Origin: Lachnospiraceae bacterium
GTDB taxonomy: Bacteria > Bacillota > Clostridia > Lachnospirales > Lachnospiraceae
Assembly (NCBI GenBank): GCA_017634065.1
Contig: JAGBOC010000021.1
Location: 1-57,286 of the forward strand
Length of the DNA stretch: 57,286 nucleotides
Reading direction: 5' to 3'
In this document: piece by piece, positions 50,699 to 57,010 of the stretch
Position numbering within the stretch: position 1 is the stretch's first letter
How the letters are laid out: each line of letters begins with the position of its first letter
The notes under the pieces: model-generated
What the model saw: only the letters and a program-made list of their open reading frames with translations
Databases searched by the model: none
Told to the model about the DNA's origin: nothing
Made by a program: the position numbers and the translations under genes

Positions 50699-50744
50699 GA
50701 AGGAACTTTACTAGCACGTAAAAAATAGGTCGTTAGAAAAAAAT

Positions 50745-52454
50745 ATGAAAAAAAGCACAAGAATAGTTAAGAGATTATTGGCACTATTTTTAGTTGTGCT
50801 TATGAGTATAGAGAGTTTAGGGGCAGTTGTTAGTGATAATGACGGAAGTGCCTTCATTACGAAGGCCGAGTTTGACAGTCTAAAAAATGACTTTCAATCG
50901 CAGATAGACCAATATAATACCTCAATAGATGCGAAGATAGATGGTGCAATAGCAAGTTATCTTGCTGGTATCAAAATAGAAACAAAGACAACGATAGATG
51001 CCCTTGTATCAAATTACAGTGATATTATGTGGAAAAATGATTTGTATGTAAAAATCAGAACTCGCACATGGACAGCAACTAATGCATATACGGACTCGGA
51101 TCTTAAGTGGCAAAAGCCAGTATTTGCCAAGTATCGATTTTTGCGTGCAGGACGATATTATATGAGTCCGATGTATTATGTGGATACAAGACCTTACTTT
51201 TTTTGCCTGTCTTTTTCCAATAATGATAACACGTATTGGATGAATAACCCTGGTTGGCTCTGCGTTGAGGCTGGTGAGGTGGATGTGGCGTATCATCAGC
51301 ATGCCATTGCTCCTCTTGTTTTTAGGTGTTATGACAAAAAAAATGGAAAACCAATCGTAAGAGATACGGTTGATGTTTTTGCACACGAATTACAAATGAC
51401 TGATCGAGCTTACCCATGCATTATCAATGGGCCTGGGGCCTTCTCAACCATGTGGAATCATTGGGTAGGCGGTGGTATTGGACCTGGAACTGGAGGTGGG
51501 CTTATATTGAAACCAAATCAAGAAGGGGATATCTTAAGATTTGATCTTAAATGGACGAAGTATTCTGGTAATAGTTCCGCCCCAGTTGCTGGTTCAACCA
51601 TGTATACTGATGGTCCATTCTATCTAATAAAAAAACAAAATGGCTATGGAGAGCCACAAATTGAAGATTTTTACACTGTAGATGTAGATAAACTGAGGAA
51701 TGAAGTTTTTACATTTTGTGAACCACGTTATCAAGCAAAATGGGAGAGCAATGATCAACAACTTTTTGACATAGCACAAATTAATAATATGTTTTTGGCA
51801 ACTGATACTGATACAAAGGTTAATTGTGCAACTGAATTAGTAAATCAAGGACCTTCTGTTTACAGAAACTGGGATTATGCAGATTCCGAATTGAAAACTG
51901 CAACTTTCTCCGCATCAAGTGCGATGGTTTCTTATAATGCAAGAGACTGGGTACAGGAGGCCTTTAACTTCATTGATGATGCTGGTACCGGTGTCAATGC
52001 ATCTTTAGACTTACCTATCTGGCCACAGTATTATTTAAGAGATTTATATACTAAACGATTTAAAGCAAAAGAGCAAGAACTTCAACTCGGTGGTGGCATC
52101 CCTATTTTAAATAATTCGGTTAACAATGGTAATTTAAAAATAAAAATGAAATATACTGTTTATGATGCAGACTTAACAAATACTGGTACTCCAAGCCAAC
52201 ATCTCCATATATCATTTAAGAAATCGTCTTTTAATGATGGTACTACCAATAATTATTGCAAAGATGACGGAGGAGTTGAATTAAAGAATAAATTATGGGA
52301 ACCAGCAACTACAGCTACAAGTACAGACTATGAAGTAACTATCCCAGTAAAGATAGGCGATAATGTGTGGTTAAGATTAGGACCTAAAGATACCAGCGCC
52401 AATGGGTTATATGCTAAAATAGATAACCTTACAGTTTCTTTAGTAACTGAATAG
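50745..52454 (+). CDS. Secreted protein with N-terminal EF-hand-like loop, paralogue 1 (569 aa)
   Basis: A signal peptide (basic MKKSTRIVKR, hydrophobic core, cleavage likely after SLGA at 27) is followed at once by VVSDNDGSAFITKAEF. D31, D33, S35, I38, T39 and E42 fit the EF-hand loop pattern, with Ala instead of Gly at loop position 6. A coiled-coil-like helix continues to YLAGI (about residue 78). The rest is Trp-, Tyr- and Gly-rich with many predicted strands, including a GGGIGPGTGGG loop. The last ~100 residues resemble a beta-sandwich ending WLRLGPKD...YAKIDNLT, shared with the two paralogues. No LPXTG or membrane anchor is present. No ribosome binding site is visible. Function unknown. 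Confidence 0.8.
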   Translation: MKKSTRIVKRLLALFLVVLMSIESLGAVVSDNDGSAFITKAEFDSLKNDFQSQIDQYNTSIDAKIDGAIASYLAGIKIETKTTIDALVSNYSDIMWKNDLYVKIRTRTWTATNAYTDSDLKWQKPVFAKYRFLRAGRYYMSPMYYVDTRPYFFCLSFSNNDNTYWMNNPGWLCVEAGEVDVAYHQHAIAPLVFRCYDKKNGKPIVRDTVDVFAHELQMTDRAYPCIINGPGAFSTMWNHWVGGGIGPGTGGGLILKPNQEGDILRFDLKWTKYSGNSSAPVAGSTMYTDGPFYLIKKQNGYGEPQIEDFYTVDVDKLRNEVFTFCEPRYQAKWESNDQQLFDIAQINNMFLATDTDTKVNCATELVNQGPSVYRNWDYADSELKTATFSASSAMVSYNARDWVQEAFNFIDDAGTGVNASLDLPIWPQYYLRDLYTKRFKAKEQELQLGGGIPILNNSVNNGNLKIKMKYTVYDADLTNTGTPSQHLHISFKKSSFNDGTTNNYCKDDGGVELKNKLWEPATTATSTDYEVTIPVKIGDNVWLRLGPKDTSANGLYAKIDNLTVSLVTE

Positions 52455-52529
52455 AAAAAAGGAACAAACAACATTTAAAGAAAATCAAAACTTAATAATA
52501 GGTAAGAAAACTTGTAACTAAATTAAACA

Positions 52530-53792
52530 TTAGTTTGTCAGGCAATTAATAGAAGTAACAATTATGCCATCAGGTCTTACATATGTCGGACCAAATGCTG
52601 TAAGTATCATCTTAAATGATGGTTTTATAAACTTTGTATAATCTATACGCTTATCAAGATTGTTTAGATTTGTTGCTGCAGCATTTATCGCATCACTGCT
52701 ACCGAGTTTGATTTCAATCATTCCCCATCTACCATCATCAAGATGAATGATGGCATCACACTCAAGACCATTTGCATCTCTATAATGCATAACTTTTCCG
52801 TTTAATAAACTGGCATATACTGATAATTCTTTTATAGCAAAATCTTCAAAGAAAAAACCAAAAGTTTTGACGTCATTTAATAAATCGTTTGGAGATATAT
52901 TTAATGCTTGACAAGCTATGGAAGTGTCATAGAAGTGTCTTGTGTTGGTAGACCTTATGGCAGTTTTGCTTCTTAAATTTGTGTTCCATGCTTCTATGTC
53001 TTCTATAATAAAAATATCTTGTAAAGCTTCTATATATTCATCAAACGTTTTAATATCAAGTTTTCTATTCTCATTTAGCTCTATATCTCTAATCATCGTA
53101 TTATATGATGCTTCAGTGGAAATATTTCTTGCATAACTTTTCAAAATCATTTTAAAAATGTTTTTTTTCTTATTGCGAAACTTTTTATTTGGGCTACTTT
53201 CAAATTCAAATAGGCCATCATAGTAATCTTTTGTAATTTTCAAAGAGTTTTCAGCTTTGGAAAGTACTGATTTTGGCCATCCACCTCTGCATATATAAAA
53301 TGCAGTTTTTTCAATATCGTAGCCTTTATTATCAAAAAAAATACTTTTATCAATCCCATCAAAAGCTTTTTTTAGAGATACTATATTTTTATTTTCAAGA
53401 GTTTCAGTAAGAGTTAACGATTTCATTTTTAGAGTGGTTATTCTACCTGCTCCAGAATGATGAATCTTTGTTTTGTCAGCTGGTGTAGAACTTCCAGTTA
53501 GAATATATAAGCCAGGCAAATCTTTTTCATCTACTAAACTTCTTACTTTGTTCCAAATGTCAGGAATAACTTGCCATTCATCAATAAGTCTTGGGCTGCT
53601 ACCTTGGAAGACAAAATTGTCATTTATTTTTGCAAGTTCTATATCTTGGTCTGTAATGAGTTTTACTTTACTTTTTGCAAATAATTCAGAAGTGGTAGTT
53701 TTGCCACAAAACTTCGGTCCAGCGATAAGTATAGCTCCCGAATATTTTAGTTTTTCGGATATTTGGTTTTCAATAAGTCTTTTAAAATACAT
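52530..53792 (-). CDS. AAA_14/DUF4143 family ATPase
   Basis: A 420-aa protein of the archaeal-type/ExeA-like AAA_14 plus DUF4143 family. Walker A is AGPKFCGKTTT (about residues 24-34), RLIDEWQ is Walker B-like, and LTGSSTP is sensor 1. The C-terminal DUF4143 contains HYRDANGLECDAII and GMIEIKLG, an Asp plus Glu-x-Lys arrangement like PD-(D/E)xK nucleases. The family is widespread in accessory DNA; its function is not settled. It is oriented against the secreted-protein genes it separates. The promoter TTGACT-N17-TAAAAT ends 6 nt before the ATG, so the mRNA is probably leaderless. Confidence 0.88.
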   Translation of the reverse strand: MYFKRLIENQISEKLKYSGAILIAGPKFCGKTTTSELFAKSKVKLITDQDIELAKINDNFVFQGSSPRLIDEWQVIPDIWNKVRSLVDEKDLPGLYILTGSSTPADKTKIHHSGAGRITTLKMKSLTLTETLENKNIVSLKKAFDGIDKSIFFDNKGYDIEKTAFYICRGGWPKSVLSKAENSLKITKDYYDGLFEFESSPNKKFRNKKKNIFKMILKSYARNISTEASYNTMIRDIELNENRKLDIKTFDEYIEALQDIFIIEDIEAWNTNLRSKTAIRSTNTRHFYDTSIACQALNISPNDLLNDVKTFGFFFEDFAIKELSVYASLLNGKVMHYRDANGLECDAIIHLDDGRWGMIEIKLGSSDAINAAATNLNNLDKRIDYTKFIKPSFKMILTAFGPTYVRPDGIIVTSINCLTN

Positions 53793-53798
53793 AGCCGA

Positions 53799-53827
53799 AT
53801 TTTACCAATATAAACGCGTAAAGTCAA
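53799..53827 (-). promoter_or_regulatory. Promoter of the DUF4143 ATPase gene, abutting its start codon
   Basis: Reverse strand: TTGACT (53827-53822), 17 nt, TAAAAT (53804-53799), 6 nt, ATG at 53792. No Shine-Dalgarno sequence is present. The -35 overlaps the first unit of the 23-bp tandem repeats. Confidence 0.65.
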
Positions 53828-53893
53828 TAAAAATCCCATAAAAAGTGGAATAAAAATCCCGTAAAAAGAGAAATAGAAATACTATAAAAATAC
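53826..53893. repeat. Three tandem 22-23 bp repeats
   Basis: Units at 53826-53848, 53849-53871 and 53872-53893 follow the pattern AATAAAAATCCCRTAAAAAG plus three variable bases; the third unit is more diverged. They lie between the ATPase promoter and repeat R2, where regulators or slippage could act. Confidence 0.75.
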
Positions 53894-53894
53894 A

Positions 53895-53944
53895 CCTATG
53901 CACACCCCCTAACTTTTACAACTTGTAGGTGGTTGGTACTGGGG
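53895..53944 (+). repeat. 50-bp repeat R2, upstream of the second secreted paralogue
   Basis: 46 of 50 positions match R1. It ends 45 nt before the ATG of paralogue 2. The 3' flank contains GGTCGTAG near the start codon; R1's gene has GGTCGTTAG at the equivalent place, but about 550 nt further from its repeat. Confidence 0.85.
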
Positions 53945-53989
53945 AGGGCTTGAGATTTACGAGCAAGAATAATTGGTCGTAGCAAATGA

Positions 53990-55498
53990 ATGACATGGAT
54001 TAGGTTAAAAGAGTATAGCAAAAAGTTAGTTGTTTTGCTTATTTTTGCATTGAGTATAAATAATTTTGCAGCTGTAGTTAGTGATAATGATGGTTCGGCA
54101 TTCGTTACAAAAGCGGAATTTGAATCTTTGAAAAAGGATTTTGCAGCACAAATAGATTCTTATAATAATAGTATAGATAGCAAAGTTGATGGAGCCATTG
54201 CCAGTTATTTAGCTGGAATAAATATGAGCGGAAAAGAAGAGTTAATTAATTACACAGCAAAAATAAAAGAAAATAATCTTGATTCTCTGTATTTTTATCA
54301 ATATCCAGCGACGGCTACTCCTTGGGGTGTAACAAGTGATTCTTGGTATGGGAAATGGTCATTATGGGCTGGAGTGGTGCAAGTTTATCATAATATAGGT
54401 TCATATTGGCAATGGCGTGTGGGTGGAAGAAGTTCGTATGATGGACCCAATATTTGGTATGAAAATGGAATTAGAAATGCTTTTTTCTTTATTGCGACTG
54501 ATTCAAATATAAAAGATAAAAATGGATTAAATGGATATGCAATTTATTTATCTGATAACGATAGACATAGTAATCAAATTAATTGGAAAATATATGCTGC
54601 AGAATGCGTCGAAAATGCGAACAGTTTCCCTACCGATGTAACTACATGGGAAGCGGCACTAGAGAAGTCACCTGTCTGGGTATATCCGAATTATATGACA
54701 TCGGGTGGTGTATTTCAAAATATGGCTCAATTGAATATACAATGGAGTTATAAAGTTTTGAATTTAACAGGTGGTGTCTCAGACGAATATACCACATATG
54801 GTGACGAGGTCGATAACAGCCCCGTTGGGAAAATGAGTTCTAATAAGATTCCTGATACTTCAGTGTGGTGCTTATCACATGTAAATAAATCACTATATGA
54901 TGGAGAACAAGTAACAATTGTCAATCCATCATGTTGGCAATCTGGAGTGGATGACCCTGGAATGGTGTTACGATATTACAAAAAAGCTTCGGGCAATAAG
55001 GGATGGACAACTATAATTGAACGTAACACTGGAGGTGGAACTTTTAAACCCACATACAAAATTTATAATCACAAATTTTATAACATTTCTCTAGATAAGT
55101 TTACAAATAATGTTGCATCGAATGCTTTAGGTAGTCCTGTATATATGTATAATGGTTTACCACTTACTACAATAGAGCAAGCTGGGACTATAACGATGAA
55201 ATGCAAATTTCATAATATTGACAATCCAAGTAATAAAGTGAAGATATATGTCTTAGATAAAAAATTTGATAATGAATCATCAAAAGATGAAGACAAATAT
55301 ACTGAAGCAGGTACAGAGTTTAATCATGTCTTGCATCACGCTGCATATGATACAGAACAATCGATAGAAATTACTTTGGATATGACAAATTATGCTAATA
55401 AACAAAGAACACTTTGGTATAGACTTGCTGACAATAATGGATTGCCAGGTAGGGTATATATGGAAGTTGAACAAATAACAGAAGTTATTGAATCGTAG
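53990..55498 (+). CDS. Secreted protein with N-terminal EF-hand-like loop, paralogue 2 (502 aa)
   Basis: The signal peptide has a basic start RLKEYSKK and cleavage likely after NNFAA (28). The mature N-terminus VVSDNDGSAFVTKAEF carries the EF-hand-like loop D32-E43, then a helix to YLAGI. The body aligns with paralogue 3 through repeated landmarks: WYGKWSLW, PNYMTSGGVF, GKMSSNKIPD, NKSLYDG, YNHKFYNISLDKF, YNGLPLTTIEQAGTITMK and the terminal LWYRLADN...VYMEVEQIT. It appears to be one exported all-beta protein type. Start set at 53990, the only ATG with an open frame here; no good ribosome binding site. Function unknown. Confidence 0.8.
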   Translation: MTWIRLKEYSKKLVVLLIFALSINNFAAVVSDNDGSAFVTKAEFESLKKDFAAQIDSYNNSIDSKVDGAIASYLAGINMSGKEELINYTAKIKENNLDSLYFYQYPATATPWGVTSDSWYGKWSLWAGVVQVYHNIGSYWQWRVGGRSSYDGPNIWYENGIRNAFFFIATDSNIKDKNGLNGYAIYLSDNDRHSNQINWKIYAAECVENANSFPTDVTTWEAALEKSPVWVYPNYMTSGGVFQNMAQLNIQWSYKVLNLTGGVSDEYTTYGDEVDNSPVGKMSSNKIPDTSVWCLSHVNKSLYDGEQVTIVNPSCWQSGVDDPGMVLRYYKKASGNKGWTTIIERNTGGGTFKPTYKIYNHKFYNISLDKFTNNVASNALGSPVYMYNGLPLTTIEQAGTITMKCKFHNIDNPSNKVKIYVLDKKFDNESSKDEDKYTEAGTEFNHVLHHAAYDTEQSIEITLDMTNYANKQRTLWYRLADNNGLPGRVYMEVEQITEVIES

Positions 55499-55525
55499 TA
55501 AATGAGGAGGTTGTATTTTTATTAG

Positions 55526-57010
55526 ATGAAAAGTATTAAGATAAAACTAATTATAATAATGATAATTGCATTTTATTTTTCTCATACTATGATTATGGCT
55601 AGTGTCGTATCAGATAATGATGGTTCTGCTTTTATTACTAAGTCAGAGTTTGATAGTTTGCGTTCTACCTTTCAATCTCAAATCAACCAGTACAATACAA
55701 GTATTGATTCAAAGATCGATAACGCAATAGCTAGTTATCTATCTGGTATCCAAACTGTTGTAAGTACAGTATTAACCGATTATAACAAAAAAATGTATGA
55801 TAATAATGCAGAGAGCATAAAGTTTATTGATTATGGCACGAGTACAGCATATCCAATTACAAATAATACAATTTATGGTGAATTTGCACTTTATTGTTCG
55901 ATGTCACAGACAAATTCTGCTTCACCTGCGAATAAAAATTGGTGGATGGTTCGTATGAGTTCAGGGGGTACATTCTCTGGTGATAATGAGTGGTTTGATT
56001 TTGGTACTGACAATGCTTTTTATTTTATAAATATTAGTAATAATATATTAGATTCAACCATGCCAGGAGGAAAAGCATTTTCTCTAGCTAATAATTCTCG
56101 ATATCATAATAAATTAAAAATAAAACATGAGTATGCAAGTCATCAAGCTAATAATAACACATTTCCTACAGATGAAACAGCTTGGCTTGATGGTATGACA
56201 AAATCTTTTAATGTTGCAATTCCAAATTATAATAGATCTTCTGGTGTTTTTCCAAGCACCGAAGTTCGAAGTGATTTTGGTCATTCAAATACTAGTGCGG
56301 ACTTTACATCACTTCTTGGTGAGGAGTGGATTGCTTATAGTGATACTTCCTCATCAAAATTAAGAGTTGGTATGATGAGTTCTGGAGCAATACCTGATCA
56401 AACTCTTGTTTGTGTTGATTATTTAAATAGATCTATATATGATGGTAATGTAATAACTTATACAAATATGCATAGTATTGGTGGGGTAGTAAGACATTAT
56501 TTTTTTAATGATGCTAGTGCTACAACTATGACTATAGGAATTAATGCAAGCATTGGTAGTTGGCCTGCAAAGTTAACAATGTATGATCATAAAAAATATA
56601 GTATACCAGTATCAAAACTCATAAATGTTCAGGCAAGTAATATAGTTTCAAAACCAGTATATTTTTATATGGGATTACCATTAACTAAAGTGACTAAAGA
56701 AGGAGAAATTACTTTAAAAGCAAGGTTTTATAGCGAGTCTGGCAATGATGTTAAACTTACCATAATGGATACAAGTTTTGACAACACAGCAACTCCTACA
56801 ACTAAAGAATATAGTTATGGCGGCGTTATATACGACCATGTATTATATACTGGAATTAATGATATATCAGATCAAAAGACAATAAAGTTTAATAAAAAAG
56901 CAGTTAATTCAGACACAGAGACTCTTTGGTTTAGATTGGAAGATGCAAGTGACAGTGATAGCAAAGTCTATATGCTTGTGGACGAGATGACCTTAACATA
57001 TACAAAGTAA
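55526..57010 (+). CDS. Secreted protein with N-terminal EF-hand-like loop, paralogue 3 (494 aa)
   Basis: The signal peptide is KSIKIKLIIIMIIAFYF with cleavage likely after MIMA (25). SVVSDNDGSAFITKSEF follows, with loop residues D30-E41 and the same helix to YLSGI. Its body matches paralogue 2: IYGEFALYC, IPNYNRSSGVF, GMMSSGAIPD, NRSIYDG, YDHKKYSIPVSKL, YMGLPLTKVTKEGEITLK and final LWFRLEDA...VYMLVDEMT. GAGGAGG lies 15 nt before the ATG, a long but possible spacing. It follows paralogue 2 by 27 nt, so the two are probably co-transcribed; a terminator follows. Confidence 0.8.
   Translation: MKSIKIKLIIIMIIAFYFSHTMIMASVVSDNDGSAFITKSEFDSLRSTFQSQINQYNTSIDSKIDNAIASYLSGIQTVVSTVLTDYNKKMYDNNAESIKFIDYGTSTAYPITNNTIYGEFALYCSMSQTNSASPANKNWWMVRMSSGGTFSGDNEWFDFGTDNAFYFINISNNILDSTMPGGKAFSLANNSRYHNKLKIKHEYASHQANNNTFPTDETAWLDGMTKSFNVAIPNYNRSSGVFPSTEVRSDFGHSNTSADFTSLLGEEWIAYSDTSSSKLRVGMMSSGAIPDQTLVCVDYLNRSIYDGNVITYTNMHSIGGVVRHYFFNDASATTMTIGINASIGSWPAKLTMYDHKKYSIPVSKLINVQASNIVSKPVYFYMGLPLTKVTKEGEITLKARFYSESGNDVKLTIMDTSFDNTATPTTKEYSYGGVIYDHVLYTGINDISDQKTIKFNKKAVNSDTETLWFRLEDASDSDSKVYMLVDEMTLTYTK

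Follow-up and report, generated by a model that had tools for sequence, protein, structure and literature searches.

A family of secreted Lachnospiraceae proteins in which the class of a short N-terminal module follows gene arrangement

Bacteria harbor multigene families of surface proteins in which a constant N-terminus is followed by a variable body, and C1q-type proteins, which carry a head on a stalk, are encoded by clustered paralogous genes and assemble into homo- or heterotrimers. Here we describe a family of secreted proteins that recalls both, starting from a stretch of 57,286 nucleotides of a Lachnospiraceae bacterium (contig JAGBOC010000021.1 of assembly GCA_017634065.1; hereafter, the window), which represents contig C16 of an assembly of 1.61 Mb in 33 contigs (genome G000). 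With the former, the family shares dozens of paralogues with a constant export region and a variable body, but its constant region, a 49-residue module, falls into complementary classes tied to gene order, with no sign of recent module copying in the window's genome. The likeness to the latter consists in paralogous chains with a putative thin oligomerising stalk and variable heads, and in the three-gene units of one relative (G004); however, the stalk would be a short helix rather than collagen, the proteins are bacterial, and no C1q Pfam match was obtained. Moreover, the duplicate of a self-assembling protein may become its partner, which is the homomer-to-heteromer route outlined in PMC7480870; duplicates that have become obligate partners in this way are usually studied case by case.

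What is new in the present case is the recurrence and the tidy link of module class to gene arrangement, and no membership of a known family was found. The genes stand either singly or as tandem pairs; the members of a pair carry modules of two complementary classes (A-prime and B), and lone genes carry a third version. The window contains three complete open reading frames of this kind on the + strand (50745-52454, 53990-55498, and 55526-57010, designated below by their first position), whose modules open with VVSDNDGSAFITKAEF.., VVSDNDGSAFVTKAEF.., and VVSDNDGSAFITKSEF.., respectively, end with IASYL(A/S)GI, and have a signal peptide immediately N-terminal to them. An initial annotation had regarded them as a family of three proteins with a shared N-terminal module; the module is real (a search of the window's genome with its 49 amino acids (aa) gave a best E of 1.9e-27, a similarity well above chance) and the three members were confirmed, but the same genome harbors at least 49. 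Furthermore, the three genes are not equivalent: 50745 is a lone gene with a lone-gene module, and 53990 and 55526 form a tandem pair, with modules of the two complementary classes and bodies 32% identical over 422 aa. Out of 171 family genes in five genomes, the one whose body best matches that of 53990 is its neighbor 55526; an iterative profile of the 50745 body found 27 of 122 family proteins, including itself and 53990.

The window's genome contains 12 tandem same-strand pairs (gap from -22 to 77 bp), whose bodies are mutual best matches within the genome and 32-67% identical, the other long body alignments listed being mostly 21-32% identical. Exactly one module per pair has Gly40 in 12 out of 12 cases, and all 25 lone modules combine Gly40 with Asp17. 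This rule was found in the window's genome, stated as a prediction, and then checked in four relatives, from which 128 matches were retrieved and 122 analysed (six fragments were left out), giving a main-clade set of 171 modules from five genomes. These genomes contain 51 neighboring same-strand pairs within 250 bp, 46 of them with homologous bodies (at least 90 bits); with six further pairs from loci of three more genomes, 52 pairs from eight genomes were considered (12 from the window's genome and 40 from the others). Exactly one Gly40 is present in 50 of the 52 (38 of the 40 outside the window's genome); shuffling the pair members in 10,000 trials gave a mean of 26.3 and a maximum of 40. 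Exactly one Glu17 is present in 47 of the 52 pairs, and a leave-one-out profile placed the partners in opposite classes in 51, also with positions 17 and 40 omitted. The positions that best separate A-prime from B are 17, 40, 24, 11, and 18. The lone modules of the five genomes are D17/G40 in 76 cases out of 79; among the other three, one is a B module (G001_C5) and one belongs to a cut gene (G001_C22_3904), both at contig ends.

The phylogenetic analysis of 169 bodies (FastTree, 336 columns) revealed that the partners are sister leaves in 40 of the 46 pairs; the other six form three quartets, two of which are orthologous pairs of two species and one a copied pair inside G005. The same tree requires a minimum of 42 changes of the Gly40/non-Gly40 state and of 27 changes of the lone/pair state. 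Module class thus follows gene arrangement and not body ancestry, as is also implied by bodies whose lineage is represented by a lone gene in one species and by a pair in another (G010_C52_3703, lone, vs. G000 C6_125592/127215, paired; G000_C22_42313, lone, vs. G010_C58, paired). Compared with the known homomer-to-heteromer cases, these (at least 42) changes of class occurred in one genus and among the same few standard classes; the switch to a partner-specific module appears to have been made about forty times within it.

The 24 lone genes compared in the window's genome have modules that are 92% identical at the protein level and 36% identical at fourfold sites, compared with the 34.5% expected from codon use; their signal-peptide codons agree at 75%. 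The fourfold sites are therefore saturated, which indicates that protein-level selection keeps the lone modules alike and rules out a recent gene conversion of the module in this genome. In G002, G005 (four genes), and G010, fourfold identity is 0.62, 0.60, and 0.51, respectively; as these values exceed the expectation, which was computed on G000, some homogenisation must have occurred there. Between species, the modules of reciprocal-best lone bodies have a mean identity of 0.84, vs. 0.93 for paralogues within a genome (lower in five cases out of seven), and those of pair members 0.66 vs. 0.70 (lower in five out of six).

Of 75 lone genes in the five genomes, 72 have the sequence GGTCGT upstream, as have 38 of the 44 first genes of pairs (110 of 119 together), mostly 10-13 nt from the start codon; none of the 45 second genes has it, and 32 of these show a Shine-Dalgarno-like stretch. 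The lone and first genes with GGTCGT are mostly without an ordinary Shine-Dalgarno sequence. The pattern AGGTCGTNRN{6,14}ATG occurs at 38 places in the window's genome: 33 mark complete family starts, C21:72 belongs to a family signal peptide at the edge of a contig, and the other four lie elsewhere; since a reversed control pattern occurs at 22 places, the positions, and not the count, carry the argument. A scan of the leader against Rfam retrieved no credible RNA family (best E 0.24, below the gathering score). We infer that this leader co-regulates the family.

Each member consists of a cleavable signal peptide, the 49-residue module (V1-I49, starting at about residue 28), and a variable body of 337-542 residues. 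With a cut before the Ala that precedes V1, the -3/-1 rule of signal peptidase cleavage is obeyed by 148 of the 164 members with a start codon, so that the mature protein probably begins with AVVSDNDGSAF, in line with the initial annotation. The earlier proposals of a module directly behind the signal peptide, and of a modular N-terminal tag on secreted proteins with divergent bodies, are supported. In the window's genome, 49 complete modules and two fragments (C33:2126-2215 and, at a contig end, C6:130068-130103) were found; the 49 genes total 77.8 kb, i.e., 4.8% of the assembly. One of them runs off its contig, a further start, with the signal peptide only, lies at the edge of C21, and 25 of the 49 are within 2.5 kb of a contig end, vs. 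10% expected; the excess at contig ends and the C21 start suggest that the true number of members is probably higher than 49. The C33 fragment (L066) encodes module residues 20-49 in a frame of 57 aa, six bases past a lone gene, and is possibly the remnant of a lost partner.

The module profile matched 12 out of 12 genomes of the genus. Among 397 genomes of the family Lachnospiraceae, four matched at E ≤ 0.01 (two of the genus and two weakly), and eight did among 392 genomes of the order (the same two and six weak ones); seven of the eight weak matches from outside the genus lie in proteins unrelated by eye and one (L194) gave no sensible frame. Probing 299 genomes of the family Lachnospiraceae, one per genus, with the body profile retrieved the window's genome only (none of the other 298 genera). 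In the samples searched, the protein family is restricted to the genus. A GTDB genome scan, covering the best 80 of 106 relatives, yielded the 70 named loci that were kept, all from uncultured Lachnospiraceae, Clostridiales, or Clostridia metagenome-assembled genomes, several of them of reticulum or omasum.

Two relatives, G003 and G008, harbor a shorter version (about 250-300 aa), whose module, AISVSDGSAFVTKAEF..RMS(S/A)LE.., is nearly invariant. The copies with upstream sequence have G runs of 7-10 nt shortly ahead of the start codon, of a length that differs among copies (loci L247-L251, L255, L261, and L262); G-runs of varying length near the start codon are typical of phase-variable genes. 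In the window's genome, none of the 49 genes has a run of at least six G within the 60 nt upstream. G004, the most distant relative according to RpoB (65% identity), contains seven tandem units with module classes A, B, and C in succession, six with all three genes and the seventh with A and B, its contig ending after the second gene. Each of the three sets is 32-66% identical across units, and A and B share a weak, mainly N-terminal similarity; a short resemblance suggests to us that class C, too, may have a homologous module. The A and B modules of G004 retain the motif I/V-T-x-x-E/Q-F/Y/W, as do the complete G003 and G008 modules that were read.

The initial annotation described the start of the module as an EF-hand-like loop, continued by a helical stretch, and proposed calcium as the trigger of a coiled coil. 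The loop resembles the third calmodulin loop, and the dockerin F-hand is a further comparison: D-x-D-G-S/N-x-F-I-T/S-x-A-E is followed by an exit helix only. Of the 171 main-clade modules, 170 retain EF position 1, 170 position 3, and 169 position 12. There was no significant EF-hand profile match, either in Pfam (PF13499/PF00036; best E 0.057, in one of 16 modules) or in PDB (best E 0.22), where 16 of 27 weak matches carry the name of calmodulin, calbindin, or an EF-hand protein. Unlike EF-hands and dockerins, the loop is present in a single copy, has Gly at position 6 in none of the 171 modules, and does not conserve position 1 across the genus, Val or Ala replacing the essential Asp in every complete G003 or G008 module that was read and in 7/7 A and 7/7 B modules of G004. 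In addition, one species has D/N/S at position 5 in just three of its 28 modules, Gln occupies position 12 in four of the seven G004 B modules, and the non-ligand residues N5 and G7 are as invariant as D4 (49/49 each in the window's genome). Calcium as the defining function is therefore unsupported. An amphipathic helix, by contrast, is supported for the helical stretch; the hydrophobic period along it is 3.58-3.76, varying with genome and stretch. The motif I/V-T-x-x-E/Q-F/Y, kept in nearly all modules, represents the capping box and hydrophobic staple of a helix start; I/V-T-x-x-E-F/Y fits the description of these elements given in PMC4138524. The R-M-S/A-x-L-E of the G003/G008 module fits R-hxxhE, which PMC3653964 presents as a trimerisation motif of parallel coiled coils; the short helix, with its putative hydrophobic core, would be a further likeness to such trimers.

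As for the bodies, no significant match was found in Pfam, PHROG, NCBIfam, or PDB. The best Pfam hit for 26 relatives of window 53990 was a VtrC lipocalin-like domain (E 0.0015, in one of the 26), which we took as chance. The SLH-like sequence ITKAEF/ITRAEF led us to consider an S-layer homology (SLH) domain; no SLH match was obtained in Pfam with 16 modules at E ≤ 10 or with the three window proteins at E ≤ 1. A phage tail fiber and a plasmid origin were rejected as well, within the searches made: the best PHROG match is an unnamed one (E 0.011, in one of 24 proteins), and window 50745 matches the tail fiber phrog_1162 with an E of 0.088. Scanning viral contigs for the module gave nine pattern matches, none of which was confirmed, and searches with one window protein found no match in phages (tblastn) or plasmids. 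Two-component leukocidin-type pore formers, which are adjacent paralogous secreted beta proteins, received no Pfam support from the proteins scanned, nor did a C1q fold, suspected from the sequence, for the short G008 bodies. Among the titles listed from the open PubMed Central literature, none describes such a family, and no paper there was found to name the six metagenome-assembled genome identifiers searched.

According to these data, the explanation that we favor, with a probability of about 0.52, is that the module is a short coiled-coil oligomerisation neck that determines whether homo- or hetero-oligomers form. Once the signal peptide has been removed, the chain would start with AVVSDNDGSAF as a capped loop, and one amphipathic helix (about residues 12-47) would enter a parallel coiled coil joining two or three variable bodies. 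The neck class would set the composition of the oligomer: lone-gene necks (A-like, Gly40) would give homo-oligomers, and A-prime (non-Gly at 40) and B (E17, G40) necks would pair, bringing sister bodies into one hetero-oligomer. In G004, necks A, B, and C would do likewise, which favors a trimer; these three classes, together with R-hxxhE in G003/G008, point to three chains, so that the oligomers are perhaps trimers. Outside the cell, they might act as multi-headed binding or coat proteins. Several aspects weigh against this explanation. The pairing rule has exceptions, with Gly40 in both modules of two pairs (G010_C57 and L176) and two A-like modules in the C21 pair of the window's genome; moreover, the five neighboring pairs without homologous bodies, left out of the counts, break it. 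The body tree was built on very divergent sequence. The main-clade period of 3.76 exceeds both heptad (3.5) and hendecad (3.67) values and is longer than that of the known parallel trimeric coiled coils, and the modules of the window itself lack R-hxxhE. Furthermore, as lone modules are nearly identical within each genome, necks alone would not stop 25 heads from mixing. A wider version accepts this, and we regard it as rather doubtful: throughout the genus, about 25 different heads of a cell would co-assemble randomly on its surface via identical lone necks, A-prime/B and A/B/C necks would fix defined combinations, and in the main clade a single GGTCGT leader would govern the expression of them all.

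The polar face of the A-type modules (S18, N21, and Q24, each in 78 of 79 lone modules, and mostly D28 and T/S32), which is absent from B, could equally bind a shared third partner. This leads to an alternative that we consider unlikely, namely that the module serves as a tag for docking or export, whose conserved face binds one species-specific partner (a cell-wall anchor, a chaperone, or an assembly machine), with A-prime and B at two sites on it. The species-specific module consensus reported above would agree with this, as would a C-terminal transmembrane-like stretch in none of the 171 proteins and an LPxTG-like motif in one (crude rule), which imply that the proteins, if they are surface proteins, need another hold on the cell; however, no gene for such a partner was found, the genes that separate members varying by cluster and being mostly housekeeping-like by eye, and docking alone leaves the sisterhood of paired bodies unexplained. 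A calcium-loaded half EF-hand (F-hand), folding or triggering assembly on secretion, would account for the retention of positions 1, 3, and 12 in the main clade and for the weak calmodulin resemblance; the absence of Gly6, the loss of ligand 5 in 25 of the 28 modules of one species, the substitutions at positions 1 and 12 in divergent genomes, and the equal invariance of non-ligand residues make it improbable. Least probable, in our opinion, is that A-prime and B are two old lineages that do not interact and that the sisterhood of partners arose by gene conversion between neighbors. Tandem duplicates can homogenise, and the raised fourfold identity in G002, G005, and G010 is in line with this; conversion could thus yield sister bodies if adjacent modules were spared, but it would then have bypassed the immediately upstream modules in about forty pairs. 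Moreover, the partners in the three quartets diverged before speciation or copying and have kept their Gly40 state, and the occurrence of a body lineage singly in one species and in a pair in another also speaks against conversion.

If the necks do interact, the family would provide a ready-made data set on coiled-coil specificity, a source of orthogonal assembly tags, and an entry point to nearly 5% of the assembly of this bacterium, among whose named relatives there are only metagenome-assembled genomes; orthogonal necks throughout the genus, if true, would represent a natural, repeatedly re-evolved code for the choice between homo- and hetero-oligomers. The pairing rule, the genus-wide family, and the leader motif are additions to the initial annotation.

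Table 1. Features of the lone gene and of the tandem pair in the window.
Feature	Position	Strand	Basis
AGGTCGT leader motif before lone gene	50727..50733	+	Pattern match C16:50727-50747
Lone-gene signal peptide, 27 aa, signal peptidase I (SPase I) cut predicted before last Ala	50745..50825	+	Sequence, -3/-1 rule
Lone-gene 49-aa module, lone class (D17, G40)	50826..50972	+	Module search, class assignment
Lone protein variable body	50973..52451	+	Iterative profile; family-library searches
GGTCGT leader, first gene of pair	53975..53980	+	Upstream sequence
First pair gene signal peptide	53990..54073	+	Sequence
First pair gene 49-aa module, class B (V11, E17, G40)	54074..54220	+	Class assignment
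First pair protein variable body	54221..55495	+	Body comparison with neighbor
Second pair gene signal peptide; upstream Shine-Dalgarno-like aggagg, no GGTCGT leader	55526..55603	+	Sequence
Second pair gene 49-aa module, class A-prime (D17, N40)	55604..55750	+	Class assignment
Second pair protein variable body	55751..57007	+	Body comparison, profile

In both the window's genome and its relatives, short dispersed intergenic repeats (GGGCGAG..CGAGCCC and similar) lie upstream of genes of the family. They stop just before the leader, e.g., within about 100 nt 5' of window position 50727, and may be one reason why contigs break at these genes. Between the lone gene and the pair, the window carries an AAA_14/DUF4143 ATPase gene on the - strand (52530-53792; checked with Pfam), and P-loop genes of similar look adjoin family genes on C1 (20872), C15 (75875), C24 (3711), and C30 (2613) of the same genome.

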